Source of the DNA: an uncultured Limosilactobacillus sp.
Lineage (GTDB): Bacteria > Bacillota > Bacilli > Lactobacillales > Lactobacillaceae
Assembly: GCA_944327195.1 (NCBI GenBank)
Contig: CALVGV010000017.1
Coordinates: forward strand, 1 to 53,085
Direction: 5' to 3'
DNA length: 53,085 nt
The notes beneath the pieces were generated by a model. It made no database searches. It saw nothing but the letters and a program-made list of their open reading frames with translations, and was not told the origin of the DNA. Shown here piece after piece: positions 17,640 to 33,000 of this stretch. Within the stretch, counting starts at the first letter, position 1. Each line of letters opens with the position of its first letter. The position numbers and the translations under genes were made by a program.

Positions 17640-18242
17640 ATGAAAAACGAACTCTTAACCCTGATGAAGCAACGTCGTTCCATTTACGCCCTCGGCAAGA
17701 AGGTTGACCAAGACAACGCCGCCATCGCCGACTTGATCAAGCAAACGATCAAGGAAGCCCCGACCGCCTTCAACTCCCAATCCACCCGGGCCGTGATTGC
17801 CTTTGGCGACGCTCACGACAAGGTTTGGGAAATCGTGCGGGCAAGCCTGCGCAAGGTGGTTAAGGACGACGACGCCTTCGCCAAGACCTCGGCCAAGATC
17901 GACTCCTTCAAGGCCGCTTACGGGACGGTCCTCTTCTTCACCGACATGAACGTGGTTCACGGCCTCGAGGAACAATTCCCGGCCTACGCCGACAACTTCT
18001 ACGACTGGTCGGAACAGGCAATGGGGAACGCCAACTTCGCCGTTTGGACCGCCCTGGCCGAAAACGGGCTCGGTGCCAACATGCAACACTACAACCCGCT
18101 GATTGACGCTGACATCGCCAAGGAATTCGACCTGCCGGAAAACTGGAAGCTGCGCGCCGAAATGGCCTTCGGTTCGATTGAACAACCGGCCGGCGACAAG
18201 GAATACATGGCTGACGAAGACCGCTTCAAGGTGGTTGACTAA
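17640..18242 (+). CDS. nitroreductase family protein (FMN-dependent)
   Basis: 200 residues; ATG after AAAGGAG. Fold family: flavin-dependent NAD(P)H oxidoreductases acting on nitro compounds, quinones or enals. Seen are the N-terminal RRSIYALGK (FMN-phosphate binding) and APTAFNSQSTRAVI, the central stretch WSEQAMGNANFAVWTALAENGLGANMQHYNP, and a C-terminal AEMAFGSIEQPAGDKEY. This layout matches the fatty-acid-repression/NAD(P)H nitroreductase subgroup of lactobacilli (about 200 residues). It is monocistronic between its own promoter and a hairpin at 18265. The operator-like site suggests control by an electrophile- or oxidation-sensing repressor. Exact substrate unknown. Confidence 0.9.
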   Translation: MKNELLTLMKQRRSIYALGKKVDQDNAAIADLIKQTIKEAPTAFNSQSTRAVIAFGDAHDKVWEIVRASLRKVVKDDDAFAKTSAKIDSFKAAYGTVLFFTDMNVVHGLEEQFPAYADNFYDWSEQAMGNANFAVWTALAENGLGANMQHYNPLIDADIAKEFDLPENWKLRAEMAFGSIEQPAGDKEYMADEDRFKVVD

Positions 18243-18264
18243 TAAAATTATCACGAAAACAATC

Positions 18265-18296
18265 ACCGCGGCCGGCAGAAATCGCCGGTCGCGGTG
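18265..18296 (+). terminator. hairpin after the nitroreductase gene
   Basis: CACCGCG-N-CCGGC pairs with GCCGG-N-CGCGGTG. The stem is strong but the downstream U-tract is weak. The remainder up to 18390 holds no gene. Confidence 0.6.
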
Positions 18297-18390
18297 AACT
18301 TGGTTAATTCGAAACTTTGGTCGCTGGAAACTGTTTTTCCGGCGGCCTTTTTGGTATACTTTTGGTGGTTACAACTGCCGCAACCGGGAG

Positions 18391-18786
18391 TCACCCTTCG
18401 GCCTGCCGGAGGGCCTGGTTGGCCAGGTGGTGGGCCCCCTGGTTTTGCTTTTCCGGCACCCACTGGGTGATCACGGTGGCAAAGCCATCCATTTGCGCCA
18501 GCAGCAAATCGAGCTCGGCCTGGTAGTGCTTGGCGTAGCCCTTGCCAACCGCGTCGGCCAGCAGGCGGCTGTCGGTGTAGAAGTACACGATCCCCGCCTG
18601 CGGGAAGCGTTTTTGCAGGGTGGTAAAGCCAAAGCGGGCGGCGGCAAACTCGCCCTCGTGATTGGAGAGCGGGCGGGGAGCCGCCTGCTTAACCTGCACC
18701 TGCTCTTGGCCCGCCACCAAGAGGGCCCCCAGGCCAGTTGGTCCCGGGTTGCCCTTGGTGGCGGCATCGGTATAGAGTTTGATCAT
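18391..18786 (-). CDS. RNase HI-like protein
   Basis: 131 residues from the ATG at 18786, which has GCGAGG upstream; the frame continues upstream but reaches into the divergent gene. RNase H fold: LYTDAATKGNPG gives the first Asp, NHEGEFAA the Glu, and YTDSRLL the second Asp. At the place of the fourth acidic residue (N-x-x-A-D-x-L-A) this protein reads NQGAHHLANQ, with His instead of Asp. RNase HI removes RNA from RNA-DNA hybrids; with the altered fourth position activity may be low or metal use changed. Only 25 bases separate its start from that of the divergent ebsA-like gene. Confidence 0.82.
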   Translation of the reverse strand: MIKLYTDAATKGNPGPTGLGALLVAGQEQVQVKQAAPRPLSNHEGEFAAARFGFTTLQKRFPQAGIVYFYTDSRLLADAVGKGYAKHYQAELDLLLAQMDGFATVITQWVPEKQNQGAHHLANQALRQAEG

Positions 18787-18811
18787 AAGAAACCTCGCAT
18801 TGGAGAGAAAC

Positions 18812-19222
18812 ATGGAAGAACACAAGAAATACTTTTACCAACCGGACCTGACGACGGCGATCATCAACTGGTGCTGGGTCCTCTTGATCCTGGTAATCGG
18901 CATCATCATCGCTTTTGAGTACACCTACTTTCAGTGGGTGACCGGCGCCTTCATTGCCGTTTTCCTCATTATAGCAAGTTTGTCGATCTTTCGCCGGACG
19001 GTGACCGTTTCGCCCACCAAGCTGGTCTTCTCGCGCGTTTTGCAAAGCCAGTTCATGACGATCCCGGTCAAGGACATCCGCCAGCCGGTCTTCACCAAGT
19101 GCACGATGACGATCACCGTCCACGGCGAGGTGATGACCTTCACCTTCTCCAACCGCTCGATCAAGTCGCTGCGGGCCTTTTTGCAGGCCAGCGCCAAGGA
19201 GGAAGCCGCCGATGTGGCTTAA
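18812..19222 (+). CDS. EbsA-like small membrane protein
   Basis: 136 residues from ATG 18812 (TTGGAGAGAAAC upstream). Two adjacent hydrophobic spans at about residues 14-34 and 38-55, then a soluble C-terminal part rich in beta strands (TVTVSPTKLVFSRVL, MTITVHGEVMTFTFS) resembling a PH-like domain. The N-terminus KKYFYQPDLTTAIINWCW fits the EbsA family named in Enterococcus, found near lspA in lactobacilli. Its molecular function is not established. It overlaps lspA by 11 bases, so it heads the operon ebsA-lspA-rluD-carA-carB. Confidence 0.65.
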   Translation: MEEHKKYFYQPDLTTAIINWCWVLLILVIGIIIAFEYTYFQWVTGAFIAVFLIIASLSIFRRTVTVSPTKLVFSRVLQSQFMTIPVKDIRQPVFTKCTMTITVHGEVMTFTFSNRSIKSLRAFLQASAKEEAADVA

Positions 19223-19667
19223 CCTCTTATTAGTGGTGGCCCTGGTGGCCCTCGACCAGCTGGTGAAGGCGGCGATCGTTGCCCACTTCACCCTCGGGGC
19301 GGTCCAGGTGGTCATCCCCGGCGTCTTGGCCCTGACCAACCTCCACAATTCCGGAGCGGCCTGGTCGATCCTCAGTGGCCAGCAGGCCCTTTTTTTTGCC
19401 CTGACGATCGTGGCGGTGGCCGTCCTGGGCTACTTTTTGTGGCGCTACCGCCAGCAGCGCTGGTTGACCCTGGCCCTTTCCCTGATGTTGGCCGGGGCGC
19501 TCGGCAACTTCATCGACCGCCTCGCCCAGGGCTACGTGGTCGACATGTTCGAGCTCCTCTTCATCAACTTCCCGGTCTTCAACGTTGCCGATTCCTGCCT
19601 GACGATTGGGGTGGCGCTCTTGGCTTTGCAGATTCTTTTGGAAAAGGATGATCCAGATGACGATTAA
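19212..19667 (+). CDS. lspA: lipoprotein signal peptidase (signal peptidase II)
   Basis: 151 residues, four membrane spans. It removes signal peptides from prolipoproteins after lipid attachment. The family motifs are present: NLHNSGAAWS, GNFIDRL with catalytic D102, and FNVADS with catalytic D127. The start overlaps the previous gene by 11 bases and the end overlaps rluD by 11 bases. Length is typical. Confidence 0.95.
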   Translation: MWLNLLLVVALVALDQLVKAAIVAHFTLGAVQVVIPGVLALTNLHNSGAAWSILSGQQALFFALTIVAVAVLGYFLWRYRQQRWLTLALSLMLAGALGNFIDRLAQGYVVDMFELLFINFPVFNVADSCLTIGVALLALQILLEKDDPDDD

Positions 19668-20580
19668 GAAGCAATTGGTGGTGGACGAACACCTGGTGGG
19701 CCGCCTCGACAAACAGCTGGCCCTGGCCCTCCCGGAAGTTTCGCGGTCCCAGTTGCAAAAGTGGATTGAAGAGGGGCAGGTAACGGTCAACGGCCAGGCG
19801 GTTAAGCCCAAGCACAAGCTCAAGCTTGGCGACCAGGTGGCGGTGAGCGAGCCGGAAGCCAAGCCGGTCGACTTGGTACCGCAGGCCCTGCCGCTGGAGA
19901 TCGTCTACGAGGACCAGGACGTCCTGGTGGTCAACAAGCCCCAGGGGATGGTGGTCCACCCGGCTCCCGGCCACCCCGACCACACCCTAGTCAACGCTCT
20001 CCTCTATCACAGCCCGCTCTCGCAGATCAACGGCGAGCTGCGGCCGGGGATCGTCCACCGGATCGACAAGGACACCTCCGGACTGCTGATGGTGGCCAAA
20101 AACGATCAGGCCCACCGTTCCCTGACCGCCCAGCTGAAGGCCAAGACGACTGCCCGCGAGTACCTGGCCCTGGTTCACGGCGAGGTCAAGGAGGAGCGGG
20201 GCACGGTCAATGCCCCGCTGGGCCGCTCGCCCAAGGACCGCAAGAAGCAGGCGATCGTGGCCAACGGCCGGCCGGCGGTGACCCACTTCCGGGTCGTCGA
20301 GCGCTTTTTGGGCTACACCCTGTTGGTCTGCCGGCTGGAGACCGGGCGGACCCACCAGATCCGGGTTCACATGAAGGCCCTCGGCCACCCGCTGGTCGGC
20401 GACCCGCTGTACGGCCCGAAGAAGACCCTCCCGGGGGCGGGGCAGTACCTCCACGCCCGCTTGCTGGGCTTTACCCACCCGGTTAGCGGCCGGCGGATCA
20501 CGGTCACCGCGCCCCTGCCGGCGGCCTTTAGCGAGCTGATTTTGAAGTTACGGCGGCAGACGGCCGGCCGCCGCCATTAA
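19657..20580 (+). CDS. rluD: RluA/RluD-family 23S rRNA pseudouridine synthase
   Basis: 307 residues from ATG 19657; AAAAGG lies about ten bases before it. An alternative in-frame ATG at 19648 has poorer spacing. N-terminal S4 RNA-binding domain (about 12-70, with RSQLQKWIEEGQVTVNG), then the catalytic domain with HRIDKDTSGLLMVAK and catalytic D137, and ETGRTHQIRVHM near 230. The enzyme isomerises uridines in rRNA; the exact target of this paralogue is uncertain. In Bacillus subtilis the orthologue ylyB stands between lspA and the pyr operon, and here too a carA-derived gene follows after 14 bases. Confidence 0.92.
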   Translation: MTIKKQLVVDEHLVGRLDKQLALALPEVSRSQLQKWIEEGQVTVNGQAVKPKHKLKLGDQVAVSEPEAKPVDLVPQALPLEIVYEDQDVLVVNKPQGMVVHPAPGHPDHTLVNALLYHSPLSQINGELRPGIVHRIDKDTSGLLMVAKNDQAHRSLTAQLKAKTTAREYLALVHGEVKEERGTVNAPLGRSPKDRKKQAIVANGRPAVTHFRVVERFLGYTLLVCRLETGRTHQIRVHMKALGHPLVGDPLYGPKKTLPGAGQYLHARLLGFTHPVSGRRITVTAPLPAAFSELILKLRRQTAGRRH

Positions 20581-20594
20581 AAGGAGGGGTTTTC

Positions 20595-21677
20595 GTGGCA
20601 AATCGTTACCTAATCTTGGAAGACGGCACCGTCTTTGCCGGCACCGGCTTCGGGTCGCCGGCGGTCACCTTCGGCGAGGTGGTCTTCAACACCGCCCAGG
20701 CCGGCTTCCAGGAAATCATCACCAACCCGGTCTACTTCAACCAGATCGTGGTCTTTGCCCAGCCCAACATCGGCAACCTGCCGCTCTACCGTAACATTTA
20801 CGAGACGATCACCCCGCCAATCAAGGGGGTCGTGGCCCGCAACCTGGCCAGCTTTGAGCCGACCGGCCGCCGCCAGGTTGGCCTCAGCCAGTACCTGTAC
20901 CAGATGAACATCCCCGGGGTGGCCGGGATCGACACCCGGGCACTGATCCAACGGTTGAAGGCAGCCGGCAAACCCTTGCGCGGCAGCATCGTCCCGGTGG
21001 CCGACGACCACGCCTTCGACCAGCTCCACGCCACCGTCTTGACCAACCAGCAGGTCGCCCAGGTGGCCACCCCTAAGCCCTACCCGAACCCCGACGTCGG
21101 CCAAACGGTGGTGGTGGTCGACTTTGGCCTCAAGAACGGCATCCTGCGTGAACTCTCGCGCCGCAAGTGCAACGTCACCGTCCTGCCGTACTCGGCCAGC
21201 GCCCAGGAAATTCTGCGGCTCGACCCGGATGGGGTGGTCCTCTCCTCCGGCCCCGGCGCCCCGGCCAACGTCAAGGCCAGCGTGCTGGAAATGATCCGCA
21301 CCATCCAGACCAAGGTGCCGCTGTTGGGGATCGGCCTCGGCCACGAGCTCTTTGCCCTGGCCAACGGGGCCAAGGTGACCCGGTTGCCGATCGAGCACCA
21401 CGGCCTCAACCACCCGATCAAGGAGATCATCACCGACCAGATCGTCTACGCCAGCCAGGCGGCCGGCTACCTGGTTGACCGCGACAGCGTCGATCGCGAC
21501 CAGCTCTACGTCACCTACGTCGACTTGATCGATAACTCGGTGCAGGGTCTTCACCACCGGCGCTACCCGGCCTTTTCGGTTCAATTCTTCCCCGACGGGG
21601 CCCCGGGACCGGACGAGACCGATTCGCTGTTTGATGAGTTCATGGACATGATGAAGGAGGAGGGGAGTCGCGGATGA
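20595..21677 (+). CDS. CarA-like protein with lost glutaminase triad
   Basis: 360 residues from GTG 20595 (AAGGAGGGG upstream), full CarA length. CarA normally takes ammonia from glutamine for carbamoyl phosphate synthesis. The N-terminal CPSase domain (FGEVVFNTAQAGFQEIITNP, GIDTRALIQ) and the GATase fold (VVVVDFGLKNGILREL, VLSSGPGAP) are recognisable. The nucleophile motif G-I-C-L-G-H is here GIGLGH, so Cys is Gly247; the usual VQYHPEA reads VQFFPDG, so His is Phe332 and Glu is Asp334. All three catalytic residues are gone. The frame is intact and overlaps the next gene by 4 bases. A non-catalytic or ammonia-channel role is inference. Confidence 0.9.
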   Translation: MANRYLILEDGTVFAGTGFGSPAVTFGEVVFNTAQAGFQEIITNPVYFNQIVVFAQPNIGNLPLYRNIYETITPPIKGVVARNLASFEPTGRRQVGLSQYLYQMNIPGVAGIDTRALIQRLKAAGKPLRGSIVPVADDHAFDQLHATVLTNQQVAQVATPKPYPNPDVGQTVVVVDFGLKNGILRELSRRKCNVTVLPYSASAQEILRLDPDGVVLSSGPGAPANVKASVLEMIRTIQTKVPLLGIGLGHELFALANGAKVTRLPIEHHGLNHPIKEIITDQIVYASQAAGYLVDRDSVDRDQLYVTYVDLIDNSVQGLHHRRYPAFSVQFFPDGAPGPDETDSLFDEFMDMMKEEGSRG

Positions 21678-24130
21678 GCGATCCGAGTGAAGCAAGCAAG
21701 ACCGTTTTAATCATCGGGGCCGGCGCCGACAGCCTTCAGCACGAGGGGGAACTGGCCGCCAGCCTGATCAAGGTGGCCCGCGCCCTCCAGCGCTGCGGCT
21801 ACCGGACCCACCTGATCGATGACAACCCCTTCAACGTGGCCCCCGACCTGACCGCCGGGATCGACGACTTTACCCAGGCGCCGCCGACGGTCGAGCAGGT
21901 GACCGCGGTGATCGAGCGGGTGCGGCCGGTGGCCCTCTTGCCAACGGTTGGCGGCCGGCTAGCGATGCAGGTCACCGAGCGGCTGGCCACCAGCGGGATC
22001 TTAAACAAGTACCAGGTTCAGGTGCTGGGGATGCCGGTGACCACCGTTCGCCAAACCAACAACCCCTCGGTCCTTAACCAGACCCTCCGCCAGGTCGGCG
22101 CCAACACCAAGAAGATCGCCCCGGTGGCGACCCTGGCCGACGCCCAGGACCTGGCGGCCGAGATCGGCTTCCCGATTGTCGTTCGCGCCGTCGCCCCGGT
22201 GGCGGGGAGCTTTCGCCGGATCGTTCACGACCAGGCCGACCTCCAGCCGGCCGTCACCGCCGCCATCCAGCACTCCGGCATCCACCAGGCGATGATTCAG
22301 CAGAGCCTGGCCGGCCTCAAGGAAATCGAGGTCGTCGTCGCCCGCGACCAGTCGGGGACGATGATGCAGCTGGCGGTCGCCGAGGACCTCGACCCGATCG
22401 GCATTCACGCCGGCGACTCGGTGACCGTCCTGCCGGCCCAGACCCTGCTGGACCGCCAGATTCAGGACATGCGCGACGTTGCCTTCAAGATCACCCGCAA
22501 GCTGCGGGTGGTGGGCATCAACCACGTCCAGTTTGCCCTCGATCAGGCCAACGACCGCTTCTACGTGATCAAGAACAGCCCCTACCTCGACCGGCTGACG
22601 ACCTTCGTCGAGCAGGCCACCGGCTACCCCCTGGCCCGGGTTCATGGCAACCTGGTCGCCGGCCAGCTCCTTCGCGACCTGCGGCTCGACCACGGCCTGG
22701 TCAAGCACACGGCGGCGATGGAGCCGGTCCTCGACCGGACGGCGATCCGCCTGCCGGTCTTTGCCAACGAGCAGCTGGGGATTGGCGACCGCCCGCTGAC
22801 GACTGAGAAGCAGTCGGTTGGGGCGGTGATTGGCCTCGGTCGTAGCCTAGTTGAGGCCCTCTTAAAGGCGCTGAGCGAACTCCACCTCGACTTCTTCGCC
22901 CTCCGCGAGGTCGCCGACGAACAGCTCGACCAGCTGCTGATCCACCCGCGGGCCAACCGCTTGTTGGCGGTCCTCGAGGCCCTGCGCCGCGGTTACCTCT
23001 TGCCCGAACTGAGCGAGCTGACCCGGTTGGATCCCTTTTACCTGGCCCAGTTTAAGCGGCTGGTTGGCCTGGAGCGCGACCTGATGCAGCACCCCGGTGA
23101 CCTGACTTTCCTCCAGCAGGCCAAGTACTGGGGGATGTCGGATTTCTTGATCGGCCAAATCTGGCAGGAGTCGGCGGCCACGGTTCGTCAGTTGCGCCAG
23201 GACCACCAGCTCCACCGGACCTACAAGGAGCTCGACCCCTCGGCCGGCGAGCTCGACCAGCACCCGGCCAAGTTCTACTCGACCTTCGAACAGGTCAACG
23301 AAAGCCAGGTGGGCGACCGGCCGCGGGCGCTGGTGATCGGCGCCGGGCCGCGCCGGCTGGGCAACGGGGTGACCACCGACTACCTGCTGACCCGGGTCGC
23401 CGCCGAGCTGAAGCGCCAGGGCTACGACCTAGTGGTGATTGATAACAACCCCAACAGCGCCCTCTTGAACCGCGAGCTGGCCAGCAAGTGTTACCTGGAG
23501 CCGCGCGACTTCGAACGGGTGGCCGCGGTGGTTGCCCTCGAGCAGCCGGAGGTGATCGCCAGCGCCGACTGCAGCTTCGTGGCCGACTTCCCGCTCGTCC
23601 GCGCCGGGGCGGCCACCCTGATCAAGCTGCCGCCGCTGGCTCTGCCAACCCTGAAAGACGGGGTGACCTACCAGTACAACGCCTTCTTTGACGGCCGCTA
23701 CGCCTACCCGCTGGGGATCACCCGCCTGACCCAGGCCAGCGCCGGGGTGACGGTCGACTTTGCCCCCGACCTGCCGGCCGGACTGGGGGCGGCCCTGACC
23801 AAGCAGGGGGAGGAAGCCCTTACCAACGACCAGCCCGCCGGCCTCTACCAGCTGACCGCCCACCGTGCGGCCGGCCAGCTCGTCTTCGACCGGCTCGGTC
23901 AGCCGCCAATCTGGGCGCTGGCCTTCCTCAGCCGGGTGACCGGCCTCGACCTGGCGGCGGTGATCGTCCGGCTGGCCCTCGGCAAGTTCAACGGCCGCCT
24001 GCTGACGGCCGCCATGCAAGGGGAGAGTAAGGCCACCCGGCTGACCGCCGTCTTCCCGGGCCCGGCCCTGCGCCTGCAGCGGCCCGCCCAGCTGAGCGAG
24101 ATGATGGGGGCGGCTCTGTCCGAAGACTAA
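21674..24130 (+). CDS. CarB-derived protein, truncated and probably non-catalytic
   Basis: 818 residues versus about 1060 for CarB. The first half aligns by pattern with the pre-ATP-grasp domain (VLIIGAGADSLQHEGELAAS), ATP-grasp 1 and the oligomerisation region (LTRLDPFYLAQFKRLV near 455, as in CarB). The glycine-rich loop is replaced by VAPVAGSFRR and the metal-binding E-M-N-P-R reads K-N-S-P-Y at about residue 300. The second half starts near 550 (ALVIGAGPRRLGNGVTTDY, VVIDNNPNSALLN) but is only about 270 residues, lacking most of ATP-grasp 2 and the MGS regulatory domain. It starts at ATG 21674 inside the carA-like stop. Function unknown; a scaffold or ligand-sensing role is speculation. 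Confidence 0.88.
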   Translation: MSDPSEASKTVLIIGAGADSLQHEGELAASLIKVARALQRCGYRTHLIDDNPFNVAPDLTAGIDDFTQAPPTVEQVTAVIERVRPVALLPTVGGRLAMQVTERLATSGILNKYQVQVLGMPVTTVRQTNNPSVLNQTLRQVGANTKKIAPVATLADAQDLAAEIGFPIVVRAVAPVAGSFRRIVHDQADLQPAVTAAIQHSGIHQAMIQQSLAGLKEIEVVVARDQSGTMMQLAVAEDLDPIGIHAGDSVTVLPAQTLLDRQIQDMRDVAFKITRKLRVVGINHVQFALDQANDRFYVIKNSPYLDRLTTFVEQATGYPLARVHGNLVAGQLLRDLRLDHGLVKHTAAMEPVLDRTAIRLPVFANEQLGIGDRPLTTEKQSVGAVIGLGRSLVEALLKALSELHLDFFALREVADEQLDQLLIHPRANRLLAVLEALRRGYLLPELSELTRLDPFYLAQFKRLVGLERDLMQHPGDLTFLQQAKYWGMSDFLIGQIWQESAATVRQLRQDHQLHRTYKELDPSAGELDQHPAKFYSTFEQVNESQVGDRPRALVIGAGPRRLGNGVTTDYLLTRVAAELKRQGYDLVVIDNNPNSALLNRELASKCYLEPRDFERVAAVVALEQPEVIASADCSFVADFPLVRAGAATLIKLPPLALPTLKDGVTYQYNAFFDGRYAYPLGITRLTQASAGVTVDFAPDLPAGLGAALTKQGEEALTNDQPAGLYQLTAHRAAGQLVFDRLGQPPIWALAFLSRVTGLDLAAVIVRLALGKFNGRLLTAAMQGESKATRLTAVFPGPALRLQRPAQLSEMMGAALSED

Positions 24131-25918
24131 TCACAATTCAGGCAGCAAAAAGGGTGTCACTCCCAAGCGGGGGTGACACCCTTTTTGAATGGAAACTGGG
24201 ATTAGCCGACCCCCCCCGACCAGCAGGAGGTGGGTCATTGCGCGGGCCCGGGCCCACTGGTAACCGGCGCTGCCGATCAGGAGCAGCCAGCCGCTCAGGG
24301 CGCTGAAGATCAGGATGCTGGTCAGCGGGGCGGGGGTGAAGTGAAGGACCAGGACGTTGGTTCCGCGGTGCTGGTAGACGGTCGGGACGCCGATCCGGCT
24401 CCGCGGCCAGGAGGTCAGCCGCTGGCCGTTGACCCACAGCTGCGACTCGCGGTAGGTGACCACCGGCACTTGCCGCCAGCCGGCGTGCTTGGCCTGCCAG
24501 CGCAGGACCAGGCTGCCGTCGCGCAGGACCTGGTGGCTGAAGCCTTGACTGGCAAAGAGGACCTCGCCTTGGTAGGTCTTGGCCACCCCGCTGGTTTGCT
24601 TGCTGGTCAGCGGCAGGTAGTCTGGCGAGCGCTTGCCCACCTTGTCGAGCAGGCGGTTGAGCCGGGCGGAGGTGGTTGCCTCAACGATCTCGTGGTTGCT
24701 GTCCCACCAGGTCAGGCGGACGAAGTAGCTGGTCGTGATCTTGCGGGCGGCACTCTTGTTGAGGCGGGCCTGGCTGGTGGTCAGGCAGGTGGTTGCCAGC
24801 AGGGCCAGGGCGACCACCCCGGCACCCCGGGCCAGCCGCTTGCCCGCCAGGGCCTGGCTGGTCAGGGCCATCCCACCCAGGAGCAGGGGGTAGGCGACGA
24901 TCGTCAGCCGGGCCGGGAACTGGAAGGTGGTGCCGAGGGCCGGCAGGGCGGCCTGGACCGCCGCCCAGGGGAAGAGGCGGGAGGAAACGAAGAGGATCCC
25001 GCCCCCGATCAGGGTGATCGCCAGGTTGCCTCCCTTGCGCCACTTGAGGGCGCAGAGGAGCTGGACCAGCAGGAGGGCCAGGCAGAGGGGGGTGATGCTG
25101 TTGCGGCTGATTGCCAGTTGCGAGAGGTGGAGGGCGTTCTTGGCCAACGAGAAGTGGTTGGGGGTGGCCAGCTGGTTGTTAAGCATCAGTTCCAGTAGGG
25201 CGCCCCAGATGTTGGCGGTCAAGAGGGTGGTGGCCCCGACCGCCTTGAAGACCTCCTTGACCATTTCACCCCGTCCCTTGGTTGAAATTAGGCCGAGGAT
25301 AAAGAAGGGGACCAGGGTGAGAACGAAGATCAGGGTCGATAGCAGGTGGATCTGCAGGGTGATGCTGATGACCAGGGCCAGCGGCAGCCACTTGACCGGC
25401 TGCTCGTGGTCGCGGATCATCCGCACCGCCACCAGGCAGAGGTAGGGGGCCAGGGCGGCTCCCCAGGCCTCCATGTTTTCGGCCAGCGCCCAGCGGGGGA
25501 GCCAGCCGAGGCTGAGGTAGATCACCGCCAAAAGGAATTGAACCAGCGGGCGGGCGCCGAGCCGTTCGGCCAGCCGCCGCATCCCCCAGCCGCCGACCAG
25601 GGCGATCGCAAAGCTGGTCACCAGCTGGTAGCCTAACCAGGAGTGCAGGACCAGGAGCAGGAGGCCGTTGAGGAAGGCAAAGGCCGGCCCGTAGATGGCG
25701 TTAATCACCCGGCCGTTTTGCTGGAAGCCGAAGTTGGTTTGAAAGTAGCTGAAGTGACCGGTCCGCAGCTGCATGGCGGTGTCGTAGAAGCGGTTGAAGT
25801 GAAAGAGGGTGTCGGAGCCGATGATCACGCTCTGGTGAGCGATTTGGGGCCACAGGCTCAGCAAGGCAACCAGGGCGATTGCCCCGCGGGTGAGCCAGCG
25901 GCGGCGGGAGAGGTTCAT
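24131..25918 (-). CDS. polytopic membrane protein, PTPS-related/GT-C-like
   Basis: 595 residues; start overlaps the PAP2 gene by 4 bases. About ten to twelve hydrophobic spans fill residues 10-385, and an extracytoplasmic beta-rich part (about 390-545) precedes a last span. The first loop SVIIGSDTLFHFNRFYDTA resembles the acidic loop of membrane glycosyltransferase-like proteins and the 6-pyruvoyl-tetrahydropterin synthase-related membrane family. A role in glycosylating a cell-surface polymer is likely but unproven. A run of eight G (minus strand, 24217-24210) lies near the end: with eight G the frame reads through the terminator hairpin to 24131; with seven it would stop with TAA at 24202-24204. 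Confidence 0.8.
   Translation of the reverse strand: MNLSRRRWLTRGAIALVALLSLWPQIAHQSVIIGSDTLFHFNRFYDTAMQLRTGHFSYFQTNFGFQQNGRVINAIYGPAFAFLNGLLLLVLHSWLGYQLVTSFAIALVGGWGMRRLAERLGARPLVQFLLAVIYLSLGWLPRWALAENMEAWGAALAPYLCLVAVRMIRDHEQPVKWLPLALVISITLQIHLLSTLIFVLTLVPFFILGLISTKGRGEMVKEVFKAVGATTLLTANIWGALLELMLNNQLATPNHFSLAKNALHLSQLAISRNSITPLCLALLLVQLLCALKWRKGGNLAITLIGGGILFVSSRLFPWAAVQAALPALGTTFQFPARLTIVAYPLLLGGMALTSQALAGKRLARGAGVVALALLATTCLTTSQARLNKSAARKITTSYFVRLTWWDSNHEIVEATTSARLNRLLDKVGKRSPDYLPLTSKQTSGVAKTYQGEVLFASQGFSHQVLRDGSLVLRWQAKHAGWRQVPVVTYRESQLWVNGQRLTSWPRSRIGVPTVYQHRGTNVLVLHFTPAPLTSILIFSALSGWLLLIGSAGYQWARARAMTHLLLVGGGRLIPVSIQKGCHPRLGVTPFLLPEL
24147..24186. terminator. bidirectional terminator, carB-like / membrane protein
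   Basis: AAAAAGGGTGTCAC-N-CCC pairs with GGG-N-GTGACACCCTTTTT over a short AAGC loop, with A and T tracts on either side. It lies inside the reading frame of the minus-strand membrane protein as written, which is abnormal. Confidence 0.93.
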
Positions 25919-29653: not shown

Positions 29654-29676
29654 ATAAAACAATCAACGTCCTTTAA

Positions 29677-29765
29677 GTTAGTCCAGAGAGGCTAGTAAGG
29701 TTCCGTCAGAACGAAATAATAACTTCCGACGACCCCACTGCACCCTTTGGCAGTGGGGTTTTCTT
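29677..29765 (+). promoter_or_regulatory. PyrR-dependent attenuator of the pyr operon
   Basis: The leader contains AGTCCAGAGAGGCT (29680-29693), the classical PyrR anti-antiterminator loop, followed by an intrinsic terminator ACCCCACTGC / GCAGTGGGGT (29732-29759) with TTTTCTT. With UMP or UTP present PyrR binds the leader RNA and the terminator forms; without it the antiterminator allows pyrBCD transcription. pyrR itself is not in the window. Confidence 0.92.
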
Positions 29766-29835
29766 AATGGACTTGGTGGATTTCATTAACGTGCTCCGGT
29801 GAGGGCCCAATGAAAGGGCGCCCGCTGGGACTGGC

Positions 29836-29865: not shown

Positions 29866-30813
29866 ATGACGCTCGTACGCTTACCCCACTTTGTTTCCGT
29901 CGAAGACCTGACCGTTGACCAAACCCTGGCCCTGATCGAACGGGCCGAGGAATTCAAGGCCGGCACCCCGGCCCCGCAGCTTTCCGAACCGGTCTACGTC
30001 ACCAATATGTTCTTCGAAAACTCCACCCGGACCCACACCAGCTTCGCGATGGCCGAACGCAAGCTGGGCCTGGAAGAAATTCCCTTCGACGCCTCCCACT
30101 CCTCGATCAAGAAGGGGGAAACCCTCTACGATACCTGCCTGACGATGAACGCCCTCGGGGTTAACCTGACCGTCATCCGCGCCAGCGAAAACGAGTACTA
30201 CAAGGCCCTGATTGCCCCGAAGGAAGACGAACACCTGGAAATCGGCGTCGTCAACGGTGGCGACGGCAGCGGCCAGCACCCGTCGCAATGCATGCTCGAC
30301 ATCATGACGATCCACGAACACTTCGGCAGCTTCAAGGGGTTGAAGGTGGCGATCGTCGGTGACATCACCAACTCGCGGGTGGCCAAGTCGAACATGGAAA
30401 TCCTCAACAAGCTCGGTGCCGAGGTCTACTTCTCCGGCCCGGACTACTGGTACGATCACGCCTTCGACAAGTACGGCAAGTTCCTGCCGGTCGACGAACT
30501 GGTTGACCAGGTCGACGTGATGATGCTTTTGCGGGTCCAACACGAACGCCACGCCGGCGACGCCAACGAGGCCAGCTTCAACGCCGCCGACTACCACGCC
30601 AAGTACGGGATCAACCGCGCCCGCTACGAGGCAATGAAGGACGACGCGATCATCATGCACCCGGGCCCGATTAACCGCGGGGTTGAACTGGCCAGCGAAC
30701 TGGTTGAGGCCCCGAAGTCGGCCTTTGTGGAACAAATGACCAACGGAGTTTACATGCGGATGGCAATGCTCGAAGCCGTTCTCCGCGGCCGCAAGTTGGG
30801 GGGCCTGGAATAA
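29866..30813 (+). CDS. pyrB: aspartate carbamoyltransferase catalytic chain
   Basis: 315 residues; ATG after GAGGAGGAAAATA. It joins carbamoyl phosphate and aspartate, the second step of pyrimidine synthesis. The carbamoyl-phosphate loop [12 protein letters not shown] (S53-T-R-T56), DGSGQHPSQ near 146-154, LRVQHERH and HPGPINRG near 265-272 are intact. No regulatory pyrI is present, as usual in firmicutes. It overlaps pyrC by one base (TAATG). Its substrate carbamoyl phosphate cannot come from the altered car-like pair at 20595-24130, so arginine-pathway enzymes or another synthetase must supply it. Confidence 0.96.
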
Positions 30814-32087
30814 TGACCACCACCAAGATCACCAACGGGACCGTCTTCAACAACGGCCGCCTGCTTCAGGCCGACCTCCTGATCGAAGACGGCAAGGTTA
30901 CCGCCCTCGGTCACGACCTGCCGGCGGCTAGCGAGACGATCGACGCGGCTGGCAAGCTGGTTGCCCCGGGCCTGGTCGACGTCCACGTCCACTTCCGCGA
31001 CCCCGGCCAGACGCAAAAGGAAACCCTGGCCACCGGGGCGGCAGCGGCCGTCCACGGCGGCTACACCACCGTCGGCGCGATGCCAAACGTGATCCCGGCG
31101 CCGGACACCCCGGCCCGGGTGGCCACCCAGGTAGCCGAAAACAGGAAACAGTTGCTGAAGATCGCCCAGTACGCCACGATCACCACCGGCCGCAGCGGCG
31201 ACCAGCTGGTTGACTTCGCCGGCGTCAAGGCGGCCGGCGCCTTCGCCGTCTCCAACGACGGTTCCGGGGTTCAGACCGCCGGGACGATGTACTTGGCAAT
31301 GCAAGAAGCGGCCAAGCACGACCTGCCGCTGGCCGCCCACGTCGAGGACGATTCGCTCCTCTTCGGCGGCGCCCTCAACGCCGGCAAGCGGGCGGCCGAG
31401 CTCGGCGTTCCGGGGATTCCGGGAGTGGCCGAGTCGGCCCAGCTGGCCCGCGACCTGGTCCTGGCTCAGGCCACCGGCGTCCACTACCACGTCTGCCACG
31501 TCTCGACCAAGGAGAGCGTTGAGCTGATCCGCCAGGCCAAGGCCCACGGGATCAAGGTCACCGCCGAGGTCTCCCCCCACCACCTCCTCTTGTGTGACGA
31601 GGACATCGAGGCCGGCAACACCAACTACAAGATGAACCCGCCCCTGCGCGGCAAGGCCGATCAAGAAGCCCTCTTGGCCGGCCTCCTGGACGGGACGATC
31701 GACTTCATCGCCACCGATCACGCCCCGCACACCGCGGCCGACAAGGGCCACGACTTCGTCAAGGCGGCCAACGGGATCACCGGGCTGGAGACGGCCTTCC
31801 CGCTCCTCTACACCCACCTGGTGCTGACCGGCAAGGCGACCCTCAACCAGTTGCTCAACTGGATGAGCACCGCCCCGGCGGAAGCCTTCAAGCTGCCGGC
31901 CGGCCACCTCGAACCGGGCCAGGCGGCCGACCTGGCGATCTTCGACCTGGACCACAAGTGGCAATTCAAGAACGAAGACTACCGCTCCAAGGGCCACAAC
32001 ACTCCCTTCACCGGGTGGCAGGTTCAGGGCGCAACCGTCCTGACGATGGTCGACGGCAAGGTGGTTTACCGGGCAAAGGAGGATTAG
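30813..32087 (+). CDS. pyrC: dihydroorotase
   Basis: 424 residues, the class I (long) type of firmicutes. It closes carbamoyl aspartate to dihydroorotate. Zinc ligands are visible in [11 protein letters not shown] (H58, H60), [21 protein letters not shown] and the catalytic Asp in [12 protein letters not shown]. It stands between pyrB (TAATG overlap) and pyrD (one base gap), so all three are translated from one message under PyrR control. No sign of damage. Confidence 0.96.
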
Positions 32088-32088
32088 G

Positions 32089-33000
32089 ATGGAACGCTTA
32101 GCAGTCAACCTGCCAGGGCTGAAGATGCAAAACCCGCTGATGCCGGCCTCGGGGACCTTCGGCTTTGGCGACGCCTTCGGGGCCCAGCAGGTCAACTTCA
32201 ACCAGCTCGGCGCCTTTGTTTTGAAGACGACCACCCCGCAAGCAACCACCGGCAACCCGCAGCCGCAGGTGGCCAAGCTCTTCGACGGGGTGATGAACTC
32301 GGTCGGCTTGACCAACCCCGGCGTTGCGGTGGTGGCCCAGCAGAAGCTACCGGCCCTGCGCAAGGCCCACCCCTACCTACCGCTGATCGCCAGCGTTGGC
32401 GGGGCCAGCGTTAACCAGTACCAGCAGGTGGCCCGCACCCTGGCCGCCACCGGCCTAATCAACGCCCTGGAAATCAACGTTTCCTGCCCCAACGTTGCCC
32501 ACGGCGGGATGGCTTTTGGCACCGATCCCAAGGTGGTTGAGAAGGTGACCGCCGCCGTCAAGGAGGTCAGCGGGGAGGTGCCGGTCTACGTCAAGCTGAC
32601 GCCAAACGTGACCGACATCACCGAGATTGCCCGCGGGGCCGAGGCCGGTGGCGCCGACGGGGTCAGCCTGATCAACACCCTGCTCGGGCTCCACATCGAC
32701 ATCAAGACCCGTAAGCCGGTCCTCGGCAACGGGATGGGGGGCTACTCCGGCCCGGCAGTCAAGCCGCTGGCGGTGCGGATGGTCTACCAGGTAGCCCAGG
32801 CCACCCGCCTGCCGATCATCGGCATGGGCGGGATTCAGACCGCCGCCGACGTAATCGAATTCATGATGGCCGGGGCGAGCGCGGTCGCGGTTGGCGCCGC
32901 CCACTTCAGGGACGCCAACGTCTGCGCCCACATCGCCGTCGACCTGCCGCCGCTGATGGACCAGCTGGGAATCCGCGCCCTGAGCGATCTGCAGCGCTAG
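32089..33000 (+). CDS. pyrD: dihydroorotate dehydrogenase, class 1B-like catalytic subunit
   Basis: 303 residues; AAAGGAGGATT precedes the ATG. It oxidises dihydroorotate to orotate using FMN. Pattern matches the class 1B PyrD of Bacillus: [28 protein letters not shown] with catalytic Cys, [37 protein letters not shown]. Class 1B enzymes normally pair with the iron-sulfur/flavin subunit PyrK, which is not beside it here; many lactobacilli lack an adjacent pyrK, so the electron acceptor is uncertain. pyrF and pyrE, expected after pyrD, are also absent and a terminator follows at once. Confidence 0.94.

Follow-up and report, generated by a model that had tools for sequence, protein, structure and literature searches.

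The window, that is the whole analysed stretch of 53,085 nucleotides from an uncultured Limosilactobacillus sp. (assembly GCA_944327195.1, contig CALVGV010000017.1, positions 1 to 53,085), contains two adjoining genes, here termed carA' and carB', which resemble the subunit genes of glutamine-dependent carbamoyl phosphate synthetase (CPSase) and have lost its catalytic residues. An earlier sequence-only reading regarded the pair as repurposed and had noted two open frames with an ATGA overlap and good ribosome sites. The overlap lies at 21674-21677, both frames are open and purine-rich sites precede both of them. The features of the pair are:

20595..21677, plus strand: carA', pseudo-CPSase small subunit, GTG start, 360 amino acids (aa); assigned by open reading frame (ORF), Pfam CPSase_sm_chain and GATase, alignment with E. 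coli CarA, and homologues
21674..24130, plus strand: carB', pseudo-CPSase large subunit, ATG start, 818 aa; assigned by ORF, Pfam CPSase_L_D1/D2/D3, residue table, deletion map, AlphaFold and Foldseek
20580..20589, plus strand: likely ribosome-binding site of carA', purine-rich, AAAGGAGGGG
21654..21665, plus strand: likely ribosome-binding site of carB', purine-rich, inside carA', AAGGAGGAGGGG
21333-21335, plus strand: Gly247 codon of carA', former Cys position
21588-21590, plus strand: Phe332 codon of carA', former His position
22214-22216, plus strand: Arg181 codon of carB', former ATP site position
22571-22573, plus strand: Lys300 codon of carB', former ATP site position

CarA' falls within the CPSase small-subunit family, with 342.6 bits against TIGR01368 (cut-off 307.35) and 403.6 bits against NF009475 (cut-off 221). 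The CarA glutaminase uses a catalytic Cys-His-Glu triad; in the alignment with E. coli CarA, Gly247 occupies the position of the nucleophile Cys269, Phe332 that of the catalytic His and Asp334 that of the Glu. The sequence-only reading counted all three residues as gone, which holds for Cys and His. Asp334 was rejected as a sign of a dead triad, since the true CarA of the same genome likewise reads HPD, i.e. has Asp at the Glu position. Gly247 is found in all 96 CarA' rows audited. Phe332 is also found in 96/96, partly by construction because loci were chosen by patterns containing it: L033-L059 were taken because their DNA matches a pattern for VQFFPDG (L060, without this match, was included as well), and one of the two patterns in the search yielding 153 relatives was the peptide AFSVQFFP. 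Two sets are free of such a choice, the 30 genus loci (Phe in 30/30) and 40 further loci, in which the His position varies between Phe, Ser, Asp, Glu and other residues. The 96 CarA' rows, as well as the 95 CarB' rows below, contain some species twice. Newly fixed residues of CarA' include Gly182, Glu251, Asp310 and Gln317. A segment between its two domains (residues 137-167, window 21003-21095) is largely invariant in 46 rows and modelled with a predicted local distance difference test score (pLDDT) below 50; it is a possible contact surface.

In the alignment of the window's CarB' with E. coli CarB, R129 is replaced by Pro, Glu299 by Lys300, Asn301 by Ser302 and Arg303 by Tyr304, the Gly-rich loop is lost, and R169, E215, H243 and Q285 of the carboxyphosphate site (E. 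coli numbering) are kept. The ATP-grasp ligand set of this site is therefore incomplete, and the loss of metal ligands and Gly-rich loop described by the sequence-only reading is confirmed. In the E. coli enzyme these positions line the site for ATP, metal and bicarbonate. Across 95 CarB' rows E299 is Lys (87) or Arg (8), R303 is Tyr (93) or Phe (2), N283 is His (93), G179 is Arg (93), R129 is Pro (78), and N301 is Ser (51) or Thr (30), with Asn retained in 10. H243, D246 and S247 are retained in all 95 rows, E215 in 94, R306 in 89 and Q285 in 80. The new residues Arg181, His284 and Tyr304 (window numbering) occur in 93/95 rows each, and 15 positions, among them 181, 284, 287 and 300, come out as newly fixed when 38 pseudo CarB rows are set against 10 true ones.

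Aligned with the true CarB of its own genome, CarB' is devoid of residues 656-678, 686-742, 899-904 and the C-terminal 919-1059. The regulatory domain is absent, as had been claimed, but the second synthetase is not nearly all lost: the second pre-ATP-grasp domain and a C-terminal ATP-grasp remnant are retained, and about 80 residues of the second ATP-grasp are gone, leaving its site incomplete. Sequence similarity to CarB is weak past residue ~650, and CarB' remains below the large-subunit cut-offs (TIGR01369, 454.9 vs 1027 bits; NF003671, 448.9 vs 599 bits). The AlphaFold model of CarB', based on 77 sequences, is confident (pLDDT 90.7, predicted template modelling score (pTM) 0.91). Foldseek places E. 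coli CarB (1c30_A) first, with a template modelling (TM) score of 0.88 by query length and 0.69 by target length over 909 columns. In the model the overall CarB fold is preserved, including the oligomerisation domain, which is also matched by Pfam CPSase_L_D3.

A search with CarB' in 50 genomes of the genus gives a match in all 50; in 48 the match is long and of the short type, at E 6e-183 or better, and that of G035 contains a TAA. The two other genomes have CarB' in pieces, one with a TAG (G009), and as a C-terminal piece at a contig end (G015). All 30 genus loci read from this search, the window's own included, have Gly for Cys and Phe for His. A sequencing error or a fresh pseudogene was rejected as an explanation, given the same residues and open frames throughout the genus. 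Of 397 family genomes, 84 match the DNA pattern for VQFFPDG, and these belong to 9 of 40 genus codes; with the pattern reversed as a control, 2 genomes match.

In the window the pair is preceded by two frames, whose names are presumed:

19212..19667, plus strand: lspA-like gene, start of the conserved block
19606..20580, plus strand: rluD-like gene, directly upstream, 14 bases from carA'; longest frame, true start maybe further in

A profile search of species genomes gave 153 relatives, and the best 80 of the 153 were retrieved as loci. These come from Limosilactobacillus, Paucilactobacillus, Secundilactobacillus, Lactiplantibacillus, Pediococcus and Furfurilactobacillus, in addition to metagenome-assembled genomes (MAGs) and isolates. 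The order RluD-CarA'-CarB' is present in 80/80 loci, with LspA in 79. In 35 loci (L114-L148: Secundilactobacillus, Lactiplantibacillus, Pediococcus, Furfurilactobacillus and MAGs) pyrR lies between rluD and carA'. CarB' is whole in 76 of the 80 loci and measures 815-855 aa, a range that includes the 818 residues of the window's copy; two copies are broken and two are located at contig ends. The broken ones, L113 (L. equigenerosi) and L127 (S. similis), have carB' in three frames, representing recent loss or assembly errors. The locus L068 (G035, contig 1) shows one-strand frames that abut exactly or nearly so in reversed gene order, and looks like strung coding sequences, a database artefact.

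Forty further CarA loci, from 40 genomes and 30 genus codes, were chosen from a plain protein search in 70 genomes. Of these, 31 have Gly for Cys, 8 are intact and follow pyrC, and one (L216) keeps the Cys and has lost the His. Most of the 31 Gly-type loci have pyrR directly upstream; a pyrP-like gene lies between in L190, L196, L204 and L205, and L200 has rluD and no pyrR. Together with the eight genus codes covered before, a Cys-to-Gly copy is present in 30 of the 38 Lactobacillaceae genus codes read, a tally that leaves out g27 and g40 and in which most genera are represented by one to three genomes; among the rest, g33 has a different lesion next to a relative that is intact, and the remaining seven gave intact CarA only. 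A full-length CarB (1054-1067 aa) with damaged sites stands beside Gly-type CarA in L190, L196, L200 and L204, that of L204 with the first Gly loop and EVNPR intact; these forms could be intermediates. In the CarA tree the 39 short-type rows form one clade (support 100/100) apart from true CarA. Divergent and full-length dead copies scatter in the unconstrained tree; a single clade is not rejected by the approximately unbiased (AU) test (p 0.112; 50 rows, L216 and L224 left out).

L216 (G081) is a full-length CPSase after a pyrP-like gene, with the glutaminase Cys kept and both the His and the synthetase Glu lost. In the tree it stands beside the true L217, with a support of only 83/54; another genome of the same genus code has an intact copy, and L216 is perhaps a recent inactivation that looks separate from the other dead copies. 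L224 (G057) is very divergent and shortened, with a PyrR-like protein of 158 aa, a CarA of 347 aa and a CarB of 659 aa. No PyrR family match was obtained in G057, as though the pair and pyrR were being lost in step.

Median dN/dS values (nonsynonymous to synonymous substitution rates) over 23 species pairs are 0.013 for CarA', 0.036 for CarB', 0.045 for RluD, 0.055 for LspA and 0.024 for PyrR. They were calculated after Nei-Gojobori with our own script, and saturated pairs were dropped per gene, leaving 22, 15, 14, 18 and 10 usable pairs, respectively; the number is low for PyrR owing to its absence from many loci. Since the species pairs were selected for CarA' identity (80-98.5%) and for having the same length, the CarA' values may be biased downwards; those of RluD and LspA may be biased upwards, the longest frame having been used for each. 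For the gene pair, dS is saturated in comparisons of the window with its three nearest relatives. CarA' and CarB' are under strong purifying selection. Neither dN/dS near 1 nor intact residues, either of which would have spoken against repurposing, were encountered in the relatives, and the idea of repurposing instead of decay is strongly supported by recurring substitutions, whole frames and the dN/dS values. The features of the pair are beyond chance because of their recurrence and these ratios. Judged from sequence comparison, the pair is a real and conserved pseudo-CPSase whose ancestor was an active CPSase and which has become fixed in Lactobacillaceae at the lspA-rluD-pyrR locus. No synthesis of carbamoyl phosphate is expected of it, because the glutaminase Cys and His, the Gly-rich loop, the metal-binding Glu and Arg303 are gone. 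No description of the pair was found in the open-access literature searched; an earlier mention in subscription papers is quite possible.

Other families were surveyed in an 80-genome sample of the order, with matches in 54 genomes and 24 loci read. CarA is intact in 22 of the 24 loci and not in two (L269, L280), both from one genus code of family f2; a third genome of this genus code (G446) gave no match. Retrieved whole, these two dead f2 pairs are found at L285:3835-8096 and L286:3680-7932 in the order lspA-rluD-pyrR-pyrC-carA-carB, with pyrB between pyrR and pyrC only in L285. The three frames after carB are presumably pyrD, pyrF and pyrE, from order and length. Glutaminase and synthetase sites are destroyed, yet the f2 pair has its full length with the regulatory domain and lies within a pyr operon that is otherwise ordinary. 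Between the two f2 pairs dN/dS is 0.057 for CarA and 0.084 for CarB, with 0.027-0.113 in neighbouring genes. The f2 pair looks like an independent case outside Lactobacillaceae, because its CarA groups with intact CarA of its own family in the tree.

The pair persists in genomes without true CarB. A true CarB match is present in 31 of the 50 genus genomes (28 of the 41 good ones) and missing from 19 (13 of the 41 good ones), all of which have a CarB'-type match, long in 18 and a C-terminal piece in G015. PyrB is found in 46 of the 50 genomes at E 1e-50 (39/41 good ones; above cut-off in 45/50) and PyrR in 48 (41/41 good ones). Eleven good genomes contain PyrB and no true CarB match. Across genera, 19 of 55 pair-carrying genomes (54 read, G118 by identity alone) have no above-cut-off CarB beyond the pair, G330 among them with a CarB fragment. 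G002 and G025 yielded no match to CarB, PyrB or PyrF and keep both the CarB' match and PyrR, and G380 and G352, where PyrB was not sought, yielded no match to CarB or PyrF and keep pyrR-carA'-carB'. PyrF was sought in 12 genomes and gave no match in 4 of 10 good ones and in the incomplete G020, with a model that also misses 2 of 14 control genomes.

A link of the pair to pyrimidine control is supported by the pyrR neighbourhood in other genera; nothing in the analysis points to arginine, the other pathway proposed at first. All seven carA'-adjacent pyrR genes tested are PyrR by NCBIfam. PyrR binding sites occur in 19 of 21 genomes, and 24 of the 30 loci read have an adjoining pyrB, pyrR or pyrP-like gene; in G058 such a site precedes pyrR at the locus of the full-length dead type. 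In L. plantarum (L126) pyrR-carA'-carB' is present and the second pyrR of the genome stands beside pyrB, so that the carA'-adjacent gene is, by elimination, pyrR2. A pyrR2 mutant of L. plantarum is said to need high CO2 or arginine and pyrimidine. Polarity of the pyrR2 mutation on carA'carB' would matter greatly. The genes pyrR1 and pyrR2 (lp_1782) of L. plantarum are named in PMC7911632, and the inorganic-carbon control of its pyr operon is attributed to PyrR2 in PMC3582564.

The reading preferred here, tentatively and at somewhat less than even chances, is that CarA' and CarB' together bind a ligand without catalysis and take part in pyrimidine control linked to PyrR; we infer complex formation, the ligand and the action on PyrR. 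The two genes adjoin or overlap and are conserved together. The former carboxyphosphate pocket of CarB' has the new conserved Arg181, His284, Lys300 and Tyr304 beside the kept Arg/Lys171, Glu217, His245, Asp248, Ser249 and Arg307 (window numbering). Several of the replacements are basic and conserved, which suggests anion binding without metal, and the pocket may thus bind a small anion or nucleotide such as bicarbonate, carbamoyl phosphate, ATP or UTP. A CarA'CarB' complex would signal the occupancy of this pocket to the control of pyrimidine metabolism, and an action on PyrR would be the simplest way. The gene for PyrR lies immediately before the pair in many genera and at another place in the genome in Limosilactobacillus.

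Several observations weigh against such a complex. The pair's locus is without pyrR in 45 of the 80 retrieved loci (Limosilactobacillus with the window, Paucilactobacillus and related MAGs or isolates). No PyrR site above the Rfam threshold was found at the pair's locus in 10 loci scanned, nor at that of the window, whose sole match precedes pyrB. In the PyrR tree, calculated without the window's own PyrR, the carA'-adjacent rows fall into several groups instead of one clade, and the seven Limosilactobacillus rows group with pyr-operon PyrR, so that a dedicated PyrR partner is not required there. The four good genomes without a pyrF match (G002, G025, G380, G352) keep the pair, hence control of de novo synthesis alone cannot be its whole role. 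The loss of Arg303 argues against bicarbonate bound in the old way, and the response of L. plantarum to inorganic carbon has been ascribed to PyrR2. Finally, the model of CarA' is poor (pLDDT 75, pTM 0.54), so that its domain packing is uncertain; Foldseek ranks E. coli CarA first for it, but with a root mean square deviation (rmsd) of 13.5.

A more specific and, in our estimate, rather doubtful version makes the dead CPSase a sensor of inorganic carbon or carbamoyl phosphate that would tune PyrR-dependent pyrimidine supply. The carbon regulation by PyrR2 of L. plantarum would then run through pyrR2-carA'-carB', and a similar conversion would have occurred independently in the other family, as a full-length dead pair in an otherwise ordinary pyr operon. 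The idea is attractive because CPSase uses bicarbonate as a substrate; caution is called for by the missing Arg303 and by genomes that keep the pair without a pyrF match. For the long-standing question of how L. plantarum pyrimidine synthesis adjusts to inorganic carbon, the pair offers a handle at the gene level.

CarA'CarB' might also join true CPSase, via its retained oligomerisation domain, or aspartate transcarbamoylase (ATCase), and activate, assemble or channel as a prozyme or scaffold. A precedent is given by the inactive dihydroorotase, whose complexes with ATCase are described in PMC6022934, where the Pseudomonas putida work is cited. A scaffold for true CPSase is weakened because the 19 of 50 genus genomes without a true CarB match keep CarB', 19 of the 55 carriers across genera have no above-cut-off CarB beyond the pair, and G002 and G025 keep the pair with neither a CarB nor a PyrB match; such a role is improbable. 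Another proposal is that the pair is a retooled enzyme, whose Lys300/Arg181/Tyr304 pocket would catalyse another reaction or provide a new route to carbamoyl phosphate in species without true CPSase. The new pocket residues are nearly invariant, and the 11 good genomes with PyrB and no true CarB match need another source of carbamoyl phosphate. However, the phosphate loop, Glu299 and Arg303 are changed, Asn301 is mostly Ser or Thr (still Asn in 10/95), the second ATP-grasp is short by ~80 residues and 31 of the 50 genomes have a true CarB besides. For carbamoyl phosphate, lactobacilli have an ordinary source in catabolic transcarbamylases (PMC6022934). Retooling is about as improbable as the prozyme or scaffold role.

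A role outside pyrimidine metabolism, tied to rluD and lspA (ribosome modification, lipoprotein processing), appears quite unlikely. The presence of RluD upstream in 80/80 retrieved loci, the absence of pyrR from 45 of these and the persistence of the pair beyond pyrF in four good genomes agree with it. Yet the order rluD-pyrR also heads ordinary pyr operons with intact CarA in the non-carriers G059, G060, G073 and G078, so the neighbourhood looks like an ancestral pyr locus and not like a new association. A slowly decaying remnant without function, to which the broken copies L113 (L. equigenerosi) and L127 (S. similis), the pieces of G009 and the stop in G035 might point, can practically be dismissed, since 76 of the 80 copies retrieved have a complete open frame, a contig end cuts two of the remaining four, and the medians of 0.013 (CarA') and 0.036 (CarB') already contradict it.

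The pair shares with glutamine-dependent CPSase (CarA/CarB, PyrAA/PyrAB) the homology, the two-gene order, the domain order into the second synthetase half and the fold of CarB'; it differs in the destruction of both active sites, the shortened second ATP-grasp and the absence of the regulatory domain. Human CPS1, of the ammonia type, likewise keeps a glutaminase-like domain with the catalytic Cys replaced, in this case by Ser294 (PMC4655335). The synthetase domains of CPS1 are active, whereas the ligands of the pair are changed and intact synthetase domains, as in an ammonia-type CPSase, are not found in it. The inactive dihydroorotase of Pseudomonas ATCase is another dead pyrimidine-pathway enzyme kept for a non-catalytic role (PMC6022934); it has no relation to the pair and assembles the enzyme that it partners, whereas CarA'CarB' is also kept where no true CarB match is found. 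PyrR (PyrR1/PyrR2 of L. plantarum), encoded immediately before the pair in the 35 loci mentioned, is an unrelated RNA-binding protein of the phosphoribosyltransferase type, and a link between it and the pair is not described in the open-access literature searched. A whole dead CPSase that strong purifying selection preserves would, to our knowledge, add a new type to the regulatory pseudoenzymes. Such pairs are likely labelled carbamoyl-phosphate synthase and counted so in metabolic models, because CarA' passes the NCBI small-subunit cut-offs; label-based predictions of CPSase would be wrong in the 19 of 50 genus genomes without another large-subunit match.

A scan of 18200-24400 for promoters and terminators is uninformative, with 1 promoter-like site where 0.5 are expected and 8 terminator-like sites against an expectation of 5.2. 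Other pyrimidine features of the window, as context outside the pair, are:

29666..29768, plus strand: PyrR binding site (Rfam RF00515), upstream of pyrB
29866..30813, plus strand: pyrB, TIGR00670 match above cut-off
30813-32087, plus strand: pyrC, by Pfam, after pyrB
32089-33000, plus strand: pyrD, by Pfam, after pyrC

carAB is not among the genes of this block. The matches for PyrR (C5:61201) and PyrF (C5:61854) are located together on another contig of the source genome (G000; 1.79 Mb, 94.5% complete), and its pyr genes are thus split. The same genome possesses a separate, normal-looking pair, consisting of a carA with GICMGHH and HPD (L001) and a carB above the TIGR01369 cut-off, whose product has 1059 aa counted from the first Met. 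The frame beside this true carAB is presumably argH-like.

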